Of a DNA stretch of 23,333 bases, positions 15,351 through 23,333 are shown piece by piece. Source of the stretch: a virus. The notes beneath the pieces are model-generated. The model had not been told where the DNA came from. It ran no database searches and was given only the letters and a program-made list of their open reading frames with translations. The stretch spans positions 1 to 23,333 of IMG/VR virus record IMGVR_UViG_3300046516_001815. The stretch is one strand, 5' to 3'. The translations under genes were made by a program, and so were the position numbers. Numbering within the stretch: the stretch's first letter is position 1; each line of letters starts with the position of its first letter.

Positions 15351-16667
15351 TTAGGAGGGCACGTCGCGAGCCGACCCTGTTTCGCTTACGCCAACATCCC
15401 AGGTCTTCGCGACGGTTGCGGTTACGATAGCCGTCGCGGAAGTGGAAGCAAGCAGCGACGCGATAAATTGTCGACGCCAATCAGGCGCGTCGACGGCGGC
15501 GGTCGCCTCCGTAAGCGCGGCAGTCCAAGCAACCGCGGCCGTCGGAGAAGCACTGGCGATCGCCGCCTCAATCATGTCTGCGCCGCTTCTGGGCGCGTCA
15601 GTTGCGGCGGCGGGTTCGATGACGGCCTTAGCCCAAACGGGCAGGAAGTCATCACTGCTGACGGGGCAGCCGACACCGCGGCCGACGCGGTCACTTAGCT
15701 GGTAGATGACCGCTTCGAAATCAACTCCGTTGAGCCCGTCTGCAGTCTGGTCGGCCAACGAATACGAGACCGTACGCCATCCGGTGTCCACCCCCGCGCG
15801 GCCGCCTACGACCCCCACCACGGCGGTCCAGCTCGATATGGTTCGGATGGGCAAACCGGAGAAGAGGATATCAACCGAATAGTCCTCGACTGGCTCGTCG
15901 ACACCCGGGTCAATACCATCCTGCATCTCATACCGTAGGCGCCGGCGGGGGACCCAGGCAATGGCCGCGTCGCCGGTGGAAGGATCATGGGTGACCCTCG
16001 CATGCGATGCTGGGTTGGGCATAATGCGACGCCCGATCATCGTCAAGTCTATGTGGCCAACGCCGTTCAGGAAAGCGTACTTCCATGGCACGCCTATACA
16101 GGACCCGTCATAGTCGATGGTATTAAGCGTATCAAGATCGAGGAGGGTAAAATCCTCCCCTATACCATGACTGGTGCTCACGTCCGTACCGAGGAGACCG
16201 CGGAGAAGAGTGCTAAGGACCCAGGTGCTGGTGGCAGCGTCAAATCGCGCGCCGCAAAATCGAATGATCTCCCCGCCGATGCAGGCTAGGTTTACGCCGC
16301 TCAGCGCCGTAATAGCGTCGACAGCCTCCAGGTTCCCCGAGGTTATCTGCACGTTGACTGTGTTGACGAGGTCCCACGAAGGCCGATCATAGGCGGCTAA
16401 GGCTGTCGTGGTCTTACCTACAACCGTAGCCACGCCCGTACTATCCAAGGAGGAATAGATAGCCCCTCCGTCAATAGACCGGTACAGCACGGTTCCCCAC
16501 TGGGCATTGGCGGCGCGCAGAACTCCGGAGGCGCCCCAATATAGGCCCTCGTCATCATCAGCGTCGCGGAGAGGGGGCAGCTCCAGCAGGTGCCCGACCG
16601 TTTCCTGCGCAACGATTAGGGGGACCGTGACGGCATGGGGCCCCTGCGCCGCAAGGATCATAGCCAT
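15351..16667 (-). CDS. GTA gp15-like baseplate protein, C-terminal half
   Basis: This 438-residue protein corresponds to the C-terminal half of GTA gp15-like baseplate proteins. ANAQWGTVLYRSIDGG (53-68), VNVQITSGNLEAVD (104-117), LACIGGEIIRFCGA (127-140), VLSTLLRGLLGT (150-161), GEDFTLLDLD (170-179) and AIAWVPRRRLRYE (235-247) follow the family order. The last 90 residues are Ala/Thr/Asp-rich with repeat-like units (EPAAATDAP at 351-359, LTEATAAVDAP at 385-395) similar to the repeats of the distal tail protein gene. It starts at ATG 16667, which shares one base with the upstream stop (TGATG) and has AGGGA about 10 bases before it. A TTG codon at 16670 is also in frame. The two halves should assemble together at the tail tip. 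Confidence 0.82.
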   Translation of the reverse strand: MAMILAAQGPHAVTVPLIVAQETVGHLLELPPLRDADDDEGLYWGASGVLRAANAQWGTVLYRSIDGGAIYSSLDSTGVATVVGKTTTALAAYDRPSWDLVNTVNVQITSGNLEAVDAITALSGVNLACIGGEIIRFCGARFDAATSTWVLSTLLRGLLGTDVSTSHGIGEDFTLLDLDTLNTIDYDGSCIGVPWKYAFLNGVGHIDLTMIGRRIMPNPASHARVTHDPSTGDAAIAWVPRRRLRYEMQDGIDPGVDEPVEDYSVDILFSGLPIRTISSWTAVVGVVGGRAGVDTGWRTVSYSLADQTADGLNGVDFEAVIYQLSDRVGRGVGCPVSSDDFLPVWAKAVIEPAAATDAPRSGADMIEAAIASASPTAAVAWTAALTEATAAVDAPDWRRQFIASLLASTSATAIVTATVAKTWDVGVSETGSARDVPS

Positions 16668-18889
16668 CAAGCTAATCCCTGGAACGCGGTGGCCAAGCAG
16701 GCGCCTTCGATCGGATCGGTTCCCTGTAGGACCAGGCCGCTCTGTGTCGAAGACACGATCTTACAGCTCACGGTAAATGCTATTCTCGCGCCCCCTGCGA
16801 ACCAATTTAGCAGAAGAACGCTAAAGTCTGGCGGGTAATGTGAGCCGATATTCCCATGCGCGGCGGCAAACAATAGGACATCGTTCGCGTGATCCGTACT
16901 TAGGGTTACGGTAGCAGAAGTGCCATCTCCATTAAAACCTGCAGCTGCAGCGTTAGGGTCTAAGGGGGCAACTAAATTCATATTAGAGAAAGCACTTGCC
17001 GACCATATTACACTCTGAGCTACATCAGTTAGGTTTATCGTGAACTCTTCATTCGTCAATATGCTAGCCGCCGGGGCTCCCCAGAACTCGATATTCTGAA
17101 ACTGCCCTCTCCCCGCGTTCTCCCAGTTACCTCCGCTTATACGTGTGAAGACGAGCCCGCTCGTACTGGTAATAGACGAGACAACAGGTGTGCGCCCGGT
17201 GGATATCGCGGCGTCGGATAGAACAGCCAAGATTACACCATCATTGGTCTGGGTAGTTGTTAACTTACCGAATAGGTCAGAACCGCCATAGCCACTGCTG
17301 GCGTCGCTAAAATCGCCTACAGCGGGGGCGCCGTCTAGCGCCGGAGGGGGAGAAGGCGGAGGAGGCAAGGGCGAGGGAATGGGTATGCCCTCGTCGGCGG
17401 TAACGCCCACGGCCCGGATCGTGAAATCCGCTCCGATTTCGATTTGCTGGAGATAGACGACGGTGCTGACGGGGGTTCCGTCTAGGAGATGCCAGTTCAG
17501 AGTTACACCGTCTCCCGGGTCCAATACAATATAGGGAAGGGGGAGAGAAAGATTATAGGTCGTCTTGTTGACGTACATCATGTGTAGGGCGCGAGAAGCC
17601 AGCCCTTCGATAACATTGTCTCTAAAGACCATATTGGTATCATAGGTAAGATTTGCCGACCCTTCTACCGCTCCTTTGTTGCGCTGGGCGTAGACTGTGC
17701 CGACTTCGAAGCTAAAATCTCCCACATAAGCATTGCCAGACGCGGTCTTATATCGAACATTTAGCCGACGCGGTAAATCTAAATTTTGTTTTCTTAGGCG
17801 GGTGAACTTTGGTACAGGATTGGTTCCTGGACCTCCGGAAGGGGGTACGCGCGCGCCCAGATCGCTCTCTTTTATGCTCATAACCGGCGAGGTTTCTGCC
17901 GCCATTCTGTATTTCGCCGTAATCTTGTAGTTCGTTTCTACCAGGTCAAAGAGAAAAATCTCCTGAAGAGGCTCTAAGATAACACGTCCGCTCGCTTCCG
18001 AAGTAACAGAATATCCGTCTATTTCATCGGTTATAGCAGAAATATCCATCTGCGGGGGAGCAAGCCCCTCCTTTTGAAGGACGTCCTCGACTATAGACCG
18101 GACTTGAACCATATTACCTGTGGTGTCTCCCGGCTGGGCACCGTTCACCTCGAAGGTAAAGGAAGGAACGCGATTACCGAAAGTTTTCAAAGGAAAATTA
18201 TTGAATACGACGTAGGCTACGCCACGATAGGCGGGCACCAACTCGTTTGCACCGTAAGTCCCCGTAGCGAGCGCCTGCATGTTAGGGTCGGGGGGCTGGT
18301 CTTCCGTGCCGAAGTACACCTGACCACTGCCGGAGGGGATAACTGGGTTGGCCCCTTTCTCGACCGAGCTTTGAGAGAAGGTGATGACTGCTCCGTAATC
18401 CCCGACTGTATCATATTTGGATACAGGTATAGCCTCTGGGTTCAGCCCCGAGGCCCACAAGGGGCCTTCAAAAGGGGAAGCCGTTTGGTCGAAGATCAGC
18501 TTACTGTCGGCGAACACCCGCCACAGATTTTGAATGGGGCCTCGGCAGATCGCAACCGCGCAGTTGACGAAATAATCAGTCTCTTTCCCTCCTCCGCCCA
18601 TTTTGCCGCCACCTTTGCCCCCGGCCTTGCCGCTTCCGCTCGACACCTGCCTCGGCTGGAGAAGGGAGGACATGATCAGGTTACCGCCGACTTTTGCCCT
18701 GCCGTATACGAGGGGGATAGGGCGGCCGAAGGTGCTCGCGATAACGGCGAGATCATAGATATTCGGCTTGTTGGTCGACTTGTGGTTCATCAGCATCTGG
18801 TCGGCCATAGAGCCGATCGAACCACCGATTATGCCGCCAATCGGCCCGCCGACTATGCTGCCGACGCCGCCAAGAACGATGGAAGCCAT
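16667..18889 (-). CDS. GTA gp15-like baseplate protein, N-terminal half plus added domain
   Basis: This 740-residue protein begins with a glycine-rich hydrophobic helix (1-30, VGGPIGGIIGGSIGSMAD) followed by the typical start of phage tail-tip attachment proteins (IPLVYGRAKVGGNLI, 58-72). The central region carries the Phage-tail_3/gp15 features (RVILEPLQEIFLFDLVE, 302-318; LVETNYKITAKYR then DLPRRLNVRY, 371-380; DPGDGVTLNW, 457-466). At 499-520 a proline linker (PSPLPPPPSPPP) leads to an added domain of about 215 residues (525-740), strand-rich, with GLVFTRISGG, FQNIEFWGAPA and STDHANDVLLFAAAHG. The typical continuation of gp15 is in the next gene. The DNA in the added domain looks AT-richer than its flanks. 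It starts at the stop of the peptidase gene (TAATG). Confidence 0.85.
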   Translation of the reverse strand: MASIVLGGVGSIVGGPIGGIIGGSIGSMADQMLMNHKSTNKPNIYDLAVIASTFGRPIPLVYGRAKVGGNLIMSSLLQPRQVSSGSGKAGGKGGGKMGGGGKETDYFVNCAVAICRGPIQNLWRVFADSKLIFDQTASPFEGPLWASGLNPEAIPVSKYDTVGDYGAVITFSQSSVEKGANPVIPSGSGQVYFGTEDQPPDPNMQALATGTYGANELVPAYRGVAYVVFNNFPLKTFGNRVPSFTFEVNGAQPGDTTGNMVQVRSIVEDVLQKEGLAPPQMDISAITDEIDGYSVTSEASGRVILEPLQEIFLFDLVETNYKITAKYRMAAETSPVMSIKESDLGARVPPSGGPGTNPVPKFTRLRKQNLDLPRRLNVRYKTASGNAYVGDFSFEVGTVYAQRNKGAVEGSANLTYDTNMVFRDNVIEGLASRALHMMYVNKTTYNLSLPLPYIVLDPGDGVTLNWHLLDGTPVSTVVYLQQIEIGADFTIRAVGVTADEGIPIPSPLPPPPSPPPALDGAPAVGDFSDASSGYGGSDLFGKLTTTQTNDGVILAVLSDAAISTGRTPVVSSITSTSGLVFTRISGGNWENAGRGQFQNIEFWGAPAASILTNEEFTINLTDVAQSVIWSASAFSNMNLVAPLDPNAAAAGFNGDGTSATVTLSTDHANDVLLFAAAHGNIGSHYPPDFSVLLLNWFAGGARIAFTVSCKIVSSTQSGLVLQGTDPIEGACLATAFQGLA

Positions 18890-19362
18890 TAGTCGAGCCC
18901 TCGAAAACGATAGTACCCCACGGGGGTGAGCCTGAGGAGCTGCAGGTTGTAAGGCTGTTCACTCACCACGCCCAGGTCCAGCATGGCGTGGCATAGGGCG
19001 AAAGGCGGCCCATCTCCCTGGTGGCGCCACGGCGTCAAAATGCCGACATGAATAGGGCGAGGTTCGATCGTCGCCGCGGCCGGCTGCCGCCGCAAAGAGA
19101 AGAGGACAAGATCGCCGGCGCGCGCTTCTGTCTCCTCGATCTTCAGGAGATGCTCGTCAAAGACATGCCGCAGTTGGTTTCCGAGGGGGAACCGATTGTA
19201 CGCAGGGGTGGCTAGATGGGCTGGCATTTGTCCGAGCAGCTCCGCGGCCGCCTGGGCTAGCCCCAGACAGTCACAGGCAACGCCTTTGGTGCGCCCCTGA
19301 TGCACCCAAGGCGTCCCGATCCAGCTCCGCACTTCGCGGACAATGTCACCTCTCGTTGTCAT
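18889..19362 (-). CDS. NlpC/P60-type tail peptidase (GTA gp14-like)
   Basis: This 157-residue protein matches the GTA gp14 cell-wall peptidase: RSWIGTPWVHQG (12-23), then VACDCLGLAQA (28-38) with the catalytic Cys32 in the CDC-LGL motif, RAGDLVLF (81-88), PIHVGILT (103-110) with His105, and a third residue, His125, in LCHAM. It probably trims peptidoglycan stem peptides as the tail tip penetrates the wall. It has no signal peptide, as expected for a virion part. It begins 21 bases after the hub gene, and its stop overlaps the next start. The Shine-Dalgarno-like AGGGGTGA is about 12-14 bases from the ATG, a long spacing. Confidence 0.87.
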   Translation of the reverse strand: MTTRGDIVREVRSWIGTPWVHQGRTKGVACDCLGLAQAAAELLGQMPAHLATPAYNRFPLGNQLRHVFDEHLLKIEETEARAGDLVLFSLRRQPAAATIEPRPIHVGILTPWRHQGDGPPFALCHAMLDLGVVSEQPYNLQLLRLTPVGYYRFRGLD

Positions 19363-19382: not shown

Positions 19383-20660
19383 TTACCCCGTCTGGACGCC
19401 GTAGTCGAAGAGGAACTGCATACCAGGGATATAGGGAAAGCCGCGGAAATTATCAGTGTTGTTCCACTGGTAGCACCCCATTTGGGTGCCGTCCCCCTTC
19501 TCGTTTGAGAGGAAGCTCTTGTCGCACCCGGGTACGATGGAGAAGGTATCGCCTATTCGGAGGGGGGCCCCCACCGGCGTGAAGAGGGCTAGATTTCCAG
19601 TCAGGGAAGAACCGCCGGTCCACCCTGCGACCTCTACCGAAGCCCCTTCGTTCTCCCCGCTGGTGAAGGTGATCAGCCCATTTTTGTAGCGGCCAAGAGC
19701 ATTTGTCGTGTTCAGCTCAAGGGTGAGGACCTTCCCGGGCAGGGGGATAGCGGATATGAGGCCTGTATCGGTGAAAGGCGCCAGGTCCTTTTTGCACCTG
19801 GCGTCGCCAAAATCCGCCACGCAAAGAGGGGTGAACAGCTCGACAAACGACTGCTGAAGGACGTATCCGAGCCCACGGATTTCGACCTTGACGATGCCGT
19901 CCATCTGGGTCATCTCGCCGATGAAGTGTCCAGGCAACGGTATCGTCGAATAGAGGGGGAAAGCATCGGCGTCGTGCCCCGTCCCGCTCGACCAGGTCAC
20001 TACGTCGGTCGGAGAGAGAATGACGAGATTTCCGTCGTCCTGGAGGACTAACCTCGACCCAGCGATGACCGGACCTGTGGGAACCGCCCATACCGACGTT
20101 ACCCCGTTATCCGCTTCGAGGAAGCCATCAGCGTACATCGTCAGGCTGGTGACGCCAAGGCCATTGGTATTCGACGCCCATATGACGGCGCTCCCTGGCT
20201 CCTGTAAGAGGACAAGATTACCGTCGGTCTGAAACTGTAGTCTAAAATTCCCGGAGGGGCTAACAACCGCGAAACTACCATCCGGAAGCACGGTTTCCCC
20301 CGACGTTAGGGCGATAATGGACCCAATTCCGATAGGACCGTCGAGCGGGTTTGCCATAAATACTTGGATGCTTGCTCCGTCATACTTCCCGGCGTCGATA
20401 TCGATATCGGTTAGGAGACCTAGCTGTAGAAAAGCAGTCGCATCGAAGCCGGGAACTGCTAGATCGACGCGCTGCTGGATTGCGGAGCGCGTAATGCCGG
20501 CAGAAGCGTGATAGGTAATACCGCCGGCATCGATCGTTTCGCTCCAGTCGGTGAAGCCCAACACAACGCCATCCTTGCGGGTTATTACACCAAAAGTTGC
20601 AAGGGCTGGTACTATCTTCTGTGAGAGATATCCCATCATTCCAGGGGTTACGTTTTTCAT
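19383..20660 (-). CDS. DUF2163 tail hub protein (GTA gp13-like) with inserted bulb-type lectin domain
   Basis: The 425-residue protein has both halves of the GTA gp13 hub fold. N-terminal signature: ITRKDGVVLGFTDWSETI (26-43), IDIDAGKYDGASIQVFM (86-102). C-terminal: HFIGEMTQMDGIVKVEIRG (245-263), LCVADFGDARC (279-289), GCDKSF (378-383), NFRGFPYIPG (404-413). Between residues about 112 and 240 lies an extra domain with bulb-type (GNA) lectin repeats: QTDGNLVLL (144-152) and W161; a degenerate MYADGFLEADNG (175-186) and W191; QDDGNLVIL (207-215) and W223. The canonical lectin motif is QxDxNxVxY, here with Leu for the final Tyr. Plant and bacterial members bind mannose-type sugars. Its start overlaps the preceding stop (ATGA). 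The hub connects the tail tube to the fibres, so the lectin would be exposed at the tip. Confidence 0.88.
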   Translation of the reverse strand: MKNVTPGMMGYLSQKIVPALATFGVITRKDGVVLGFTDWSETIDAGGITYHASAGITRSAIQQRVDLAVPGFDATAFLQLGLLTDIDIDAGKYDGASIQVFMANPLDGPIGIGSIIALTSGETVLPDGSFAVVSPSGNFRLQFQTDGNLVLLQEPGSAVIWASNTNGLGVTSLTMYADGFLEADNGVTSVWAVPTGPVIAGSRLVLQDDGNLVILSPTDVVTWSSGTGHDADAFPLYSTIPLPGHFIGEMTQMDGIVKVEIRGLGYVLQQSFVELFTPLCVADFGDARCKKDLAPFTDTGLISAIPLPGKVLTLELNTTNALGRYKNGLITFTSGENEGASVEVAGWTGGSSLTGNLALFTPVGAPLRIGDTFSIVPGCDKSFLSNEKGDGTQMGCYQWNNTDNFRGFPYIPGMQFLFDYGVQTG

Positions 20661-21895
20661 TCTCTGACTTCCTGTAAGGTGATCCCTTTCCAGCCGGCTG
20701 CATCTGTTGTAAGAGTGATATCGATGTCCGCTTTATCCGATAAGAAGCAAACCGGGATATGGAACTCTCCCGACCAAGTCGTTACACCTATGGTCCCAGC
20801 CGTAACTATCCCCGTGGTGTAATCCAGTCCTGGACCCGCAGGAGAAAACACAACAGTGTCGGGCACCGGCCTGAATATAGGCCGGTCTACGGTAATTGGA
20901 TTGCCATATATATCAAGTAGAGTGTATCGCTTTCCCAAACCCACCGCACCTTCAGCGAAAGGCATGAGTATCCCTTCGGCTGATGTTACGGTAAAATCGA
21001 ACCAATCCTTGAAGCGAAAAGTTTTACGCTGCCCTTGCGCCCAAGCGAATAAAGACATCATCTGGGCCATGTCTTCCGAAGTACGAAGACCTTTACTTAT
21101 TACCCAGTGTCCAAGGGAAAGCCCCCACTCTCCTGCTCGGTACTCGACCCCCGAAGCCGTGGTGACTATGCGTGTACGCCAGCCGCAGCCTCCTATAGCA
21201 CCAAGAGATATATCTGGTGGGAAGAGGGGCTCGAAAATCTGTTTCGGGGTAGTAACCGAAGCTACCGCTCTTCCCGCTTCAAGAACGGATACGTGGTATA
21301 CTGGAGCGGGTATAAAACTTCCTCTGGGGGCGTCGACGGAGACCGCCGCCTCTGTAATCGAAGCTGCCTGCGAAGAGACAAAGGCGCTGTCTAGCGCCGT
21401 GGCTACAGCGGAAATTACGGCGCTATGGTCTGCGTTGGCGCTCGCCTCCCCGGCCGCTGCGGAGGCGAGGATAGCCTTCGTCCAAGTCAGCCCTTCAGTT
21501 GAGGCCGAGCTGGCGGTCGCTGCTTCGGTAGCCGTCGCTCCCCAAGCCAGCAGGGAAGCACAGGCATCGGCCGCCGTGGCAGCCTCCGCGGTAGCCGCAG
21601 CCCACGTTAGCGAGGCAGAGGGCGCGTCGGTAGCTGTAGCCGCCTCTGCAGCCGATTTGCTCCAGGTCAGAGAAGGAAGGGAGGGCGCGTCGGTAGCTGT
21701 AGCCGCCTCTGTATCTGCTGCCGTCCACGTCAGGGAGGACACAGCAGGCGTATCGGTGGCTGTAGCTGCCTCGGTGTCCGATACCGAGAAGGAAGAAGGC
21801 GAAACGTCGATCCAGTCGTAGCCGGGGACCAGGCATTGCTGCCCTTGGGCACTATCGTCGAACCAGCCGTAACCTGGGACTAGGTATTGGGCCAT
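20657..21895 (-). CDS. DUF2460 distal tail protein (GTA gp12-like) with N-terminal repeats
   Basis: The last 190 or so residues of this 412-residue protein fit DUF2460/GTA gp12: FPPDISLGAIGGCGWRTRIV (225-244, the family start), ASGVEYRAGEW (247-257), then FAWAQGQRKTFRFKDWFDF (283-301). This protein forms the ring below the tail tube. The family usually begins near this point, whereas here about 218 residues precede it: two copies of (Y/C)LVPGY(G/D)W (4-11 and 21-28), then five clear tandem repeats of 20-21 residues with the core TEAATATDAP and a closing SLTW (about 40-140), then more degenerate units to about 190. The repeats may form a flexible or trimeric extension. The start at 21895 gives the LVPGY pair. 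Confidence 0.85.
   Translation of the reverse strand: MAQYLVPGYGWFDDSAQGQQCLVPGYDWIDVSPSSFSVSDTEAATATDTPAVSSLTWTAADTEAATATDAPSLPSLTWSKSAAEAATATDAPSASLTWAAATAEAATAADACASLLAWGATATEAATASSASTEGLTWTKAILASAAAGEASANADHSAVISAVATALDSAFVSSQAASITEAAVSVDAPRGSFIPAPVYHVSVLEAGRAVASVTTPKQIFEPLFPPDISLGAIGGCGWRTRIVTTASGVEYRAGEWGLSLGHWVISKGLRTSEDMAQMMSLFAWAQGQRKTFRFKDWFDFTVTSAEGILMPFAEGAVGLGKRYTLLDIYGNPITVDRPIFRPVPDTVVFSPAGPGLDYTTGIVTAGTIGVTTWSGEFHIPVCFLSDKADIDITLTTDAAGWKGITLQEVRE
21555..21774 (-). repeat. tandem 60-63-base repeats in the distal tail gene
   Basis: A 31-base block beginning GAGGGCGCGTCGGTAGCTGT (plus-strand sense) recurs exactly at 21618-21648 and 21681-21711, 63 bases apart (21 codons). A diverged copy lies at 21744-21774 and a further one begins near 21558. 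The repeat encodes the EAATATDAP-SLTW units. Near-identical DNA between copies suggests recent duplication or gene conversion, so copy number may vary. Confidence 0.85.
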
Positions 21896-21907: not shown

Positions 21908-23333
21908 TTAGGCTAGGTTAAGATTGGGATCGATATAGGCGACCAGAGTAGCAGTAGCTAGGCGCGGCGCTGCAAAAACAACGCCCTTCTTCTGAAGGGT
22001 GAAAGTCTTCGTCAACTTCTGACGGACCATACAGCGGACGACCATACCGCCCCCGTTGCGGTCAGTAGTGATCTGCGTACCATCTGTTACTCCGGTATAT
22101 GCCGCGGGCTCACTGGTAGCACTGGTCCCAGCCGTCGTCACACGAAAAATCTGTCCCGGGGCTGTTGCCGTCTTAAACACGTCTCCCACAGAGTAGGCGT
22201 GATTGTCCTGTCTGGCGGCAGCCCCTGTATCCCAGGCCGACGTATCCGACGAGTGACCGGAGACCGAGGTCCCCGGGATTAGATCGGCTATCCGATCGCT
22301 AGAGAGGGTGGAAAGGGGCGACCCTGAATTTGTGAGGCCCTCCACGTCCATCCATATCTGCGAATTATCCAGTACGGCAGCGGTATCGGTCACGAAGTAA
22401 ATCGTCGCAGTGACTGATCCCGTGGTGTTGTATCGCCGCGCAATCGGAGGCAGCTCCTGCGGCATAAAAAGGGTGGGAGGCCCTGTGGTATTCGTCGTGA
22501 CCTTCCACGACTGAGGGGTTACGCCGTCTGTCGCGCCGCCGGTTCGCACAACCAAGATATCCTGGGCTACAATTCCCCCCGACATATACCACGCAAAGCG
22601 GTAGTTGGTGTTGCCCGTCGTGTCATCGCAATTGTCAAGGAACACGGTTGCGGAGGTCCCGAGGGCAACTGGCGGAGTTCCCGTCATCGGGACAACCCCG
22701 GCGGCGAGCAAGCAGTTGGCAAACCTCATTTTAGCCGCGCCGGCAGTGATATTGCCACTAACGAGATTGCCGGTGACGGCGGATAGGTCCACGCCTCGTA
22801 TACTTATTTCTCCGCTTTGAGCGGAATTGGAGAACAAGGTGGTTGGCACGGTCCCTAAGATCGCCGACGGTGTGTTGCTCCACACTATATCTACGTTAGG
22901 CGCAGACCCAGAAGCCGTGGATATGGCTATCGCCTGTGACGCACTGCCGAAGGTCGCGGTAGTATTATTCAAGCGTATGCGAAACCCGGAAGACCCATTC
23001 GCCAGATTTATACGAGAAGCGCCAGTGGCGTTATTAAGGTTGAAGTTGCAGTCGTCAAATTGCATTGATTGATTATTATCGAGTGTAATACTCGTGGACG
23101 ACTTAAAAGCAATACCGAAAAAACGATAAGGAGTATTAGTTGGGGGTGAAATCGTAAGGGCCCCACCTGTCGAGTTTACACTAGCTCCTACTGTATAGTC
23201 GGCGGTAACAGGCGGTATAGACCCTGCGGTGCGAGTAACCGAGATAAATTTCATTGGCCCGGCGGCGACGCCGGAATAGCTGAAATTCAGAGAGGTCGCA
23301 ACCGTCTCAGCATGGTCCGAACTCACGAAGAAA
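21908..23333 (-). CDS. phage structural protein, probably tail/capsid surface (5' end beyond window)
   Basis: The reading frame is open to the right edge, so the N-terminus is missing; a GTG at 23326 gives 472 residues but is probably an internal codon, because VSSDHAETVATSLNFSYSGV follows in a pattern I recall from interior N-termini of phage structural proteins that have W/F-V-SSDHAE. The chain is rich in Ser, Thr, Asn and Gly with alternating strands (GISIRG, SGFRIRLNN, MQFDDCNFNL), consistent with a beta-helix or beta-sandwich surface protein. The C-terminus is basic then hydrophobic (KLTKTFTLQKKGVVFAAPRL). A C-terminal RNGGGMVVRCM segment may close the fold. It lies 13 bases before the distal tail protein gene and is likely a tail-associated or decoration protein. 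Confidence 0.7.
   Translation of the reverse strand, partial: FFVSSDHAETVATSLNFSYSGVAAGPMKFISVTRTAGSIPPVTADYTVGASVNSTGGALTISPPTNTPYRFFGIAFKSSTSITLDNNQSMQFDDCNFNLNNATGASRINLANGSSGFRIRLNNTTATFGSASQAIAISTASGSAPNVDIVWSNTPSAILGTVPTTLFSNSAQSGEISIRGVDLSAVTGNLVSGNITAGAAKMRFANCLLAAGVVPMTGTPPVALGTSATVFLDNCDDTTGNTNYRFAWYMSGGIVAQDILVVRTGGATDGVTPQSWKVTTNTTGPPTLFMPQELPPIARRYNTTGSVTATIYFVTDTAAVLDNSQIWMDVEGLTNSGSPLSTLSSDRIADLIPGTSVSGHSSDTSAWDTGAAARQDNHAYSVGDVFKTATAPGQIFRVTTAGTSATSEPAAYTGVTDGTQITTDRNGGGMVVRCMVRQKLTKTFTLQKKGVVFAAPRLATATLVAYIDPNLNLA

Follow-up and report, generated by a model that had tools for sequence, protein, structure and literature searches.

The stretch of viral DNA analysed here (referred to as the window) comprises 23,333 nucleotides and represents an entire virus record. 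It contains a tail gene which, according to an earlier sequence-only reading, encodes a gene transfer agent (GTA)-type hub with a bulb-type lectin inserted in it. This raises the question of whether a lectin indeed resides in the baseplate core of this phage and, if so, where in the hub it sits and what it might bind.

The interrupted gene encodes a GTA-type baseplate hub

An ORF check confirmed the coordinates given in that reading for the gene, and added that it lies on the minus strand (Table 1). Its product is a GTA-type baseplate hub, with scores above the cut-offs of the TIGR02218 equivalog (i.e., "phage/gene transfer agent baseplate hub protein"; 138.5 vs. 80.5 bits), of PF09931 (106.6 vs. 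26 bits, E 1.9e-30, in two stretches) and of PF09356 (62.2 vs. 22.9 bits, E 6e-17). Moreover, an AlphaFold2 model of the hub, built from 49 hub relatives, aligned with the hubs of RcGTA (6tba_7A; Z 15.1 over 275 residues) and R4C (8gtc_P; Z 14.7), the next-ranked fold matches being those of phage Chi, JBD30 and lambda gpL (Z 11.6 for the latter). All four cysteines C280, C289, C379 and C396 were conserved in the hub alignments, from which an Fe-S cluster is predicted; the equivalent cysteines hold such a cluster in RcGTA, R4C and lambda gpL (PMC7296036, PMC10276861, PMC10721106). Since a comparison of GTA hub and gpL alignments with hhalign returned nothing (the gpL set being too narrow), the kinship between both hub types rests on structure and on the lambda structure paper (PMC10721106), which equates the N-terminal domain of gpL with the N-terminal region of RcGTA gp13 as one hub domain, HDI.

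The genetic context fits this identity. The hub gene starts with an ATG that shares bases with the Dit stop codon, and the genes for Dit (DUF2460), hub, NlpC/P60-like protein and megatron follow one another as in GTAs and GTA-like phages. Relatives of the tail proteins belonged mostly to phages of Alphaproteobacteria, and none of 50,697 phage records contained near-identical DNA. The record is perhaps a fragment of a phage genome, and the presence of an integrase indicates that this phage is probably temperate.

Table 1. Coordinates of the hub gene, its parts and the neighbouring tail genes in the window.
Feature	Position	Strand	Basis or remark
Baseplate hub gene P0001, GTA gp13/TIGR02218 family	19383..20660	-	425 aa ORF
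Hub residues 1-111, first part of attachment domain (HDI)	20328..20660	-	PF09931 at residues 19-131; alignment to P0010
Insertion, residues about 112-240, attachment-domain loop (site A)	19941..20327	-	Lectin core ~114-229
Lectin motif QTDGNLVLL, residues 144-152	20205..20231	-	Leu for Tyr
Degenerate lectin motif YADGFLEAD, residues 176-184	20109..20135	-	Judged inactive
Lectin motif QDDGNLVIL, residues 207-215	20016..20042	-	Leu for Tyr
Hub residues 241-278, rest of attachment domain	19827..19940	-	Alignment
Hub residues 280-396, first to last of four Cys, oligosaccharide-binding domain between pairs	19473..19823	-	Alignments
PF09356 (BR0599) domain, residues 324-413	19422..19691	-	Profile match
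Distal tail protein (Dit), DUF2460, GTA gp12 type	20657..21895	-	N-terminal low-complexity extension
NlpC/P60-type tail peptidase, GTA gp14 position	18889..19362	-	Weak: PF00877 E 0.011, phrog_329 1.8e-11
Megatron N-terminal part, GTA gp15 type	16667..18889	-	PF13550, phrog_4271
Megatron fibre-binding part, separate (Rcc01698_C)	15351..16670	-	PF23666, phrog_4271 988-1301

The insert is predicted to fold as a complete bulb-type lectin

The proposed split of two conserved hub halves by a lectin was borne out by the Pfam profiles, as B_lectin (PF01453) matched in between PF09931 and PF09356 (E 1.7e-4). By score, however, this match stayed below the curated gathering score of 32.4 bits, both for the full protein (22.5 bits) and for the segment alone (26.9 bits). 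In a phmmer search, the segment retrieved pyocin L1 (best E-value 4.7e-16), putidacin and plant bulb lectins. The NF033557 family (putidacin lectin/LlpA) matched with an E-value of 1e-14 and 54.5 bits, below its cut-off of 275 bits, and the insert carries one lectin domain instead of the tandem domains that define LlpA.

When the segment was modelled separately with AlphaFold2, using 31 lectin rows from viral contigs, a model with a pLDDT of 89.7 and a pTM of 0.82 was obtained, for which Foldseek ranked monocot lectins on top. VIA-align superposed it on gastrodianin (1xd6) with a Z-score of 17.5 (1.6 Å over 109 of 110 residues) and on D-rhamnose-bound pyocin L1 with a Z-score of 13.7. The three-lobed beta-prism that had been anticipated is thus present in the prediction, as a beta-prism II with three subdomains. 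Together, the modelled fold, the alignments and the family scores support a bulb-type lectin inserted in a GTA-type hub, i.e., in the baseplate core. By fold and kinship, the segment appears to be a complete monocot (bulb-type) lectin; with two Leu-for-Tyr sites and one dead site (see below), this claim does not extend to mannose-binding activity.

The insertion site lies in a loop of the attachment domain

Pairwise alignment to an insert-free hub placed the extra residues between VFMANPLDG and HFIGEM, i.e., within the attachment domain (RcGTA residues 1–142) and not at a domain boundary. The insertion is in frame at both ends, the remaining hub is conserved, and no sharp boundary in GC content is visible at the insert.

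The size of site A was measured as the span between two conserved flanking residues, F100 and G120, in 139 distinct hubs from phages, viral contigs, a plasmid-borne prophage and alphaproteobacterial genomes. This span amounts to at most 23 residues (median 20) in 138 of the 139 hubs vs. 147 residues in the window hub, in line with the earlier statement that the minimal GTA hub lacks the segment. Because this collection was assembled with hub sequences as queries, it may underrepresent rare hubs that carry an insert. In 385 alphaproteobacterial genomes, the hub halves were adjacent wherever both were matched, and a single-protein scan of genome contigs yielded three hubs, all without insert. 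DNA patterns linking the second lectin motif to hub motifs retrieved no other contig; the first of these patterns does match the window. Since the first codons are fixed in these patterns and the permitted spacing is limited to about 10 residues, they tolerate little variation and may have passed over other insert-bearing contigs. Mixed alignments of hubs and lectins (including fragmented rows) misplaced the lectins and were left out of the results.

A different position, between the Fe-S cysteine pairs (site B), was enlarged in seven of the 139 hubs, the window hub not being among them. Among the enlarged hubs are those of the phages Lacusarx (whose hub weakly matches F5/8 type C), vB_EliS-L02 and Bajun, as well as one from a Paraburkholderia phymatum prophage. 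A shared insertion site for the Lacusarx, vB_EliS-L02 and Bajun inserts and the window lectin was considered and rejected, as theirs fall between the cysteine pairs. Large site B insertions in the GTA-type hubs of loci L008, L009, L010 and L218, one of which weakly matches F5/8 type C, indicate that insertions recur in the oligosaccharide-binding domain.

Bulb-type lectins recur in phage tail tips

Scans of viral contigs, first with a DNA pattern and then with a lectin profile, brought other lectin loci to light. Among them are 22 loci, 19 of them distinct, in which a lambda-gpL-type hub contains a bulb lectin (e.g., L258, PF05100 4.8e-57), each of the 19 distinct hubs carrying two complete QxDGNxVxY motifs. 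Where both cysteine pairs are present, the lectin is located between the first and second pair. The profile scan found about 30 loci with gpL-type lectin ORFs, overlapping the first set in part. The fusion of lectin and hub is therefore recurrent in phage tail tips, and among all cases found the window is the only one that combines a GTA-type hub with a lectin at site A. In a tree, the window lectin grouped with tail-tip lectins, apart from the LlpA-like set, with a support of 97/99 that applies to this split only.

Several individual loci showed further arrangements. The gpL-type hubs L346:1816-4218, L348:3-2747, L353 and L356 carry several lectins one after another between their Fe-S cysteine pairs. 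In the gpL-type hub L333:1747-3417, the bulb lectin is placed after the second cysteine pair, and a second insert of about 170 residues, without family match, sits in a loop of the N-terminal domain that seems equivalent to site A. In L344:2962-6056 and L335:2944-5460, a phrog_1082 tail protein begins with the bulb lectin; in L344, its gene is immediately followed by that of a DUF2163-type (phrog_778) hub.

The novelty of the fusion has to be delimited accordingly. The sequence-only reading did not regard it as a described type, and this holds for a bulb lectin in a GTA-type hub at an attachment-domain loop; the broader principle is known from evolved Dit and Tal proteins (PMC7291167), and lectin-bearing gpL-type hubs are common in metagenomic phages. 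Our literature search, which covered few subscription journals, yielded no publication dealing with bulb-type lectins of phage tails.

The putative sugar-binding sites depart from the mannose consensus

Relative to the monocot lectin signature QxDxNxVxY, none of the three sites of the window lectin is complete, and Q, D, N and V are retained at two of them. The repeated QxDGNLVxL motifs noticed earlier were found at residues 144 and 207, and motif read-out verified that Leu replaces the final Tyr in both. The earlier reading had not listed the third subdomain, for which the model predicts the lectin fold with a dead motif (YADGFLEAD). A degenerate DNA pattern for DGN-LV occurred twice in the gene vs. 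0.00 times expected in shuffles. Among 207 distinct instances of phage lectin motifs, the final position was Tyr in 162 and Leu in eight, and several of the Leu-bearing motifs belong to tail-tip lectins related to that of the window (L334, L335, L337 and L343).

In LlpA, a site with a Tyr-to-Gln change took up no methyl-mannose, full activity required complete motifs, and the degenerate N-terminal lectin domain reads the protein BamA, while pyocin L1 prefers D-rhamnose (PMC3585409, PMC6240691). Given these precedents and the Tyr-to-Leu sites, mannose should not be assumed as the ligand, and either a non-mannose sugar or an outer-membrane protein is possible. The latter would mean that the lectin fold has turned from sugars to a protein surface, as the LlpA N-terminal domain does with loop L6 of BamA. 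A dead site II, the missing Tyr at sites I and III, and the LlpA precedent, methyl-mannose result included, would all be compatible with such a ligand. On the other hand, Q, D, N and V are exact at two sites, which would be unnecessary for protein binding, the nearest lectin relatives come from tail tips and have canonical motifs at their other sites, and the tree separates the window lectin from the LlpA-like set. A protein ligand is consequently regarded as rather unlikely.

A probable role of the hub lectin in adsorption

Whatever its ligand, the lectin quite probably serves in adsorption, and that it does so by binding a host glycan through three hub-borne copies is the version we favour with some reserve. 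By analogy with RcGTA and R4C, the phage would be a GTA/roseophage-like siphophage in which three hubs close the tail below the Dit ring; in both of these systems, the tip contains three hubs whose attachment domain docks to the Dit ring (RcGTA trimer: PMC7296036). The attachment domain (HDI) would have acquired one monomeric bulb-type lectin in a surface loop, and the virion would display three lectins around the joint of tail and baseplate, atop the baseplate. The loop at site A presumably faces outward, since the contacts with Dit and megatron must stay intact; we infer the orientation on the hub from this consideration, the insert having a low confidence (about 31–56 by blocks) in the full-length AlphaFold2 model. 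The lectins may then bind a host-envelope glycan (capsule, LPS or exopolysaccharide) reversibly and with low affinity and so orient the tip, with irreversible binding and ejection coming after. For RcGTA and R4C, sugar contacts by hub, Dit, megatron and fibre have been proposed by the authors to aid passage through the capsule (RcGTA: PMC7296036).

An adsorption role is supported by the in-frame insert in a conserved hub, by the motif residues kept at two sites and by the independent fusions elsewhere. Against the favoured version stand the loss, at both better sites, of the Tyr that bonds mannose O4, next to the dead third site, and the single contig, with no second site A case in the hubs compared. 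This same single copy on a single contig, together with the motif decay, could also mean that the lectin binds no ligand itself and is a decoration of a structural or neutral kind, be it a spacer, a stabiliser of the hub–Dit joint or a leftover. Ig-like and other decorations of tail proteins often have no proven ligand. Nevertheless, four of the five motif residues are kept at two of the three sites, which would be surprising in a relic, and lectins recur independently in tail tips, so that a neutral decoration seems improbable, somewhat more so than the protein ligand discussed above. Finally, an assembly artefact joining a hub gene to a lectin gene, to which the single contig might point, is highly improbable, as both junctions are in frame, the hub halves are complete, the gene sits in the normal order from Dit to megatron and the lectin is related to those of other tail tips.

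Among the known systems close to the window hub, the hubs of RcGTA (Rcc01696, gp13) and R4C share its family, its layout of attachment, Fe-S, oligosaccharide-binding and clip parts, and its gene order. In contrast with the window hub, their attachment domain has no insertion, and sugar binding has been proposed for the domain between their cysteine pairs. In the gpL-type hubs (L258, L346, L348 and others), a bulb lectin likewise resides within a structurally related hub; unlike in the window, it is located between or after the cysteine pairs, often in several copies and with complete motifs. LlpA and pyocin L1 share the lectin fold (about 26–32% identity in structural alignments), but are free bacteriocins with two tandem domains and form a separate group in the tree, whereas gastrodianin, a monomeric monocot mannose-binding lectin and the closest solved fold, is a free plant lectin outside any phage tail protein.

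The adsorption role has its most likely counterpart, by analogy, in the evolved Dit and Tal proteins of phages of Gram-positive bacteria, which also carry a sugar-binding module inside a tail-core protein. Evolved Dits attach to their hosts via such inserted modules, and in evolved Tal the module is inserted in the gp27-like N-terminal domain (PMC7291167). They differ from the window hub in having a BppA-type CBM fold, another core family and another host group (the host of the window phage being deduced). Judging from its model, the window hub shares the architecture of decorated tail-core proteins, i.e., a sugar-binding-type module in a loop of a core domain. This suggests that, beyond fibres and Dit, the hub ring itself can carry a receptor-reading domain in GTA-like tails, and the sugar or protein partner of this recurrent tail-tip module would show how such phages locate their hosts in nature. 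More tentatively, and as a possibility we hold at somewhat less than even, site A in GTA-type hubs could be a decoration site so far undescribed, and bulb lectins a general tail-tip adsorption module for Gram-negative hosts, carried on Dit-position, gpL-type or GTA-type hub proteins and here retuned by the Tyr-to-Leu changes to a non-mannose ligand.

Additional observations

LlpA-like lectins were also encountered as stand-alone cargo genes in Pseudomonas aeruginosa phages (L219:4518-5390, L220:4980-5534 and L221:2709-3581), with integrase, repressor or attR features close by. In the window, a protein of at least 474 aa that looks beta-rich is encoded at positions 21908-23333, where the tape measure would be expected; its gene lies close to the contig end or runs across it, and no match to the protein was found in Pfam or PHROG. 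The N-terminal extension of Dit (about 200 residues) consists of degenerate repeats such as LTWTAADTEAATATDAPS. The megatron is encoded by two genes (15351-18889; products of 740 and 439 aa) whose stop and start codons overlap in TGATG, vs. a single ORF of about 1290-1320 aa in several relatives. The C-terminal part of the first megatron protein (about 225 residues) is without family match, and the second part ends in runs resembling the Dit repeats, with a weak mutual similarity (E 0.036).
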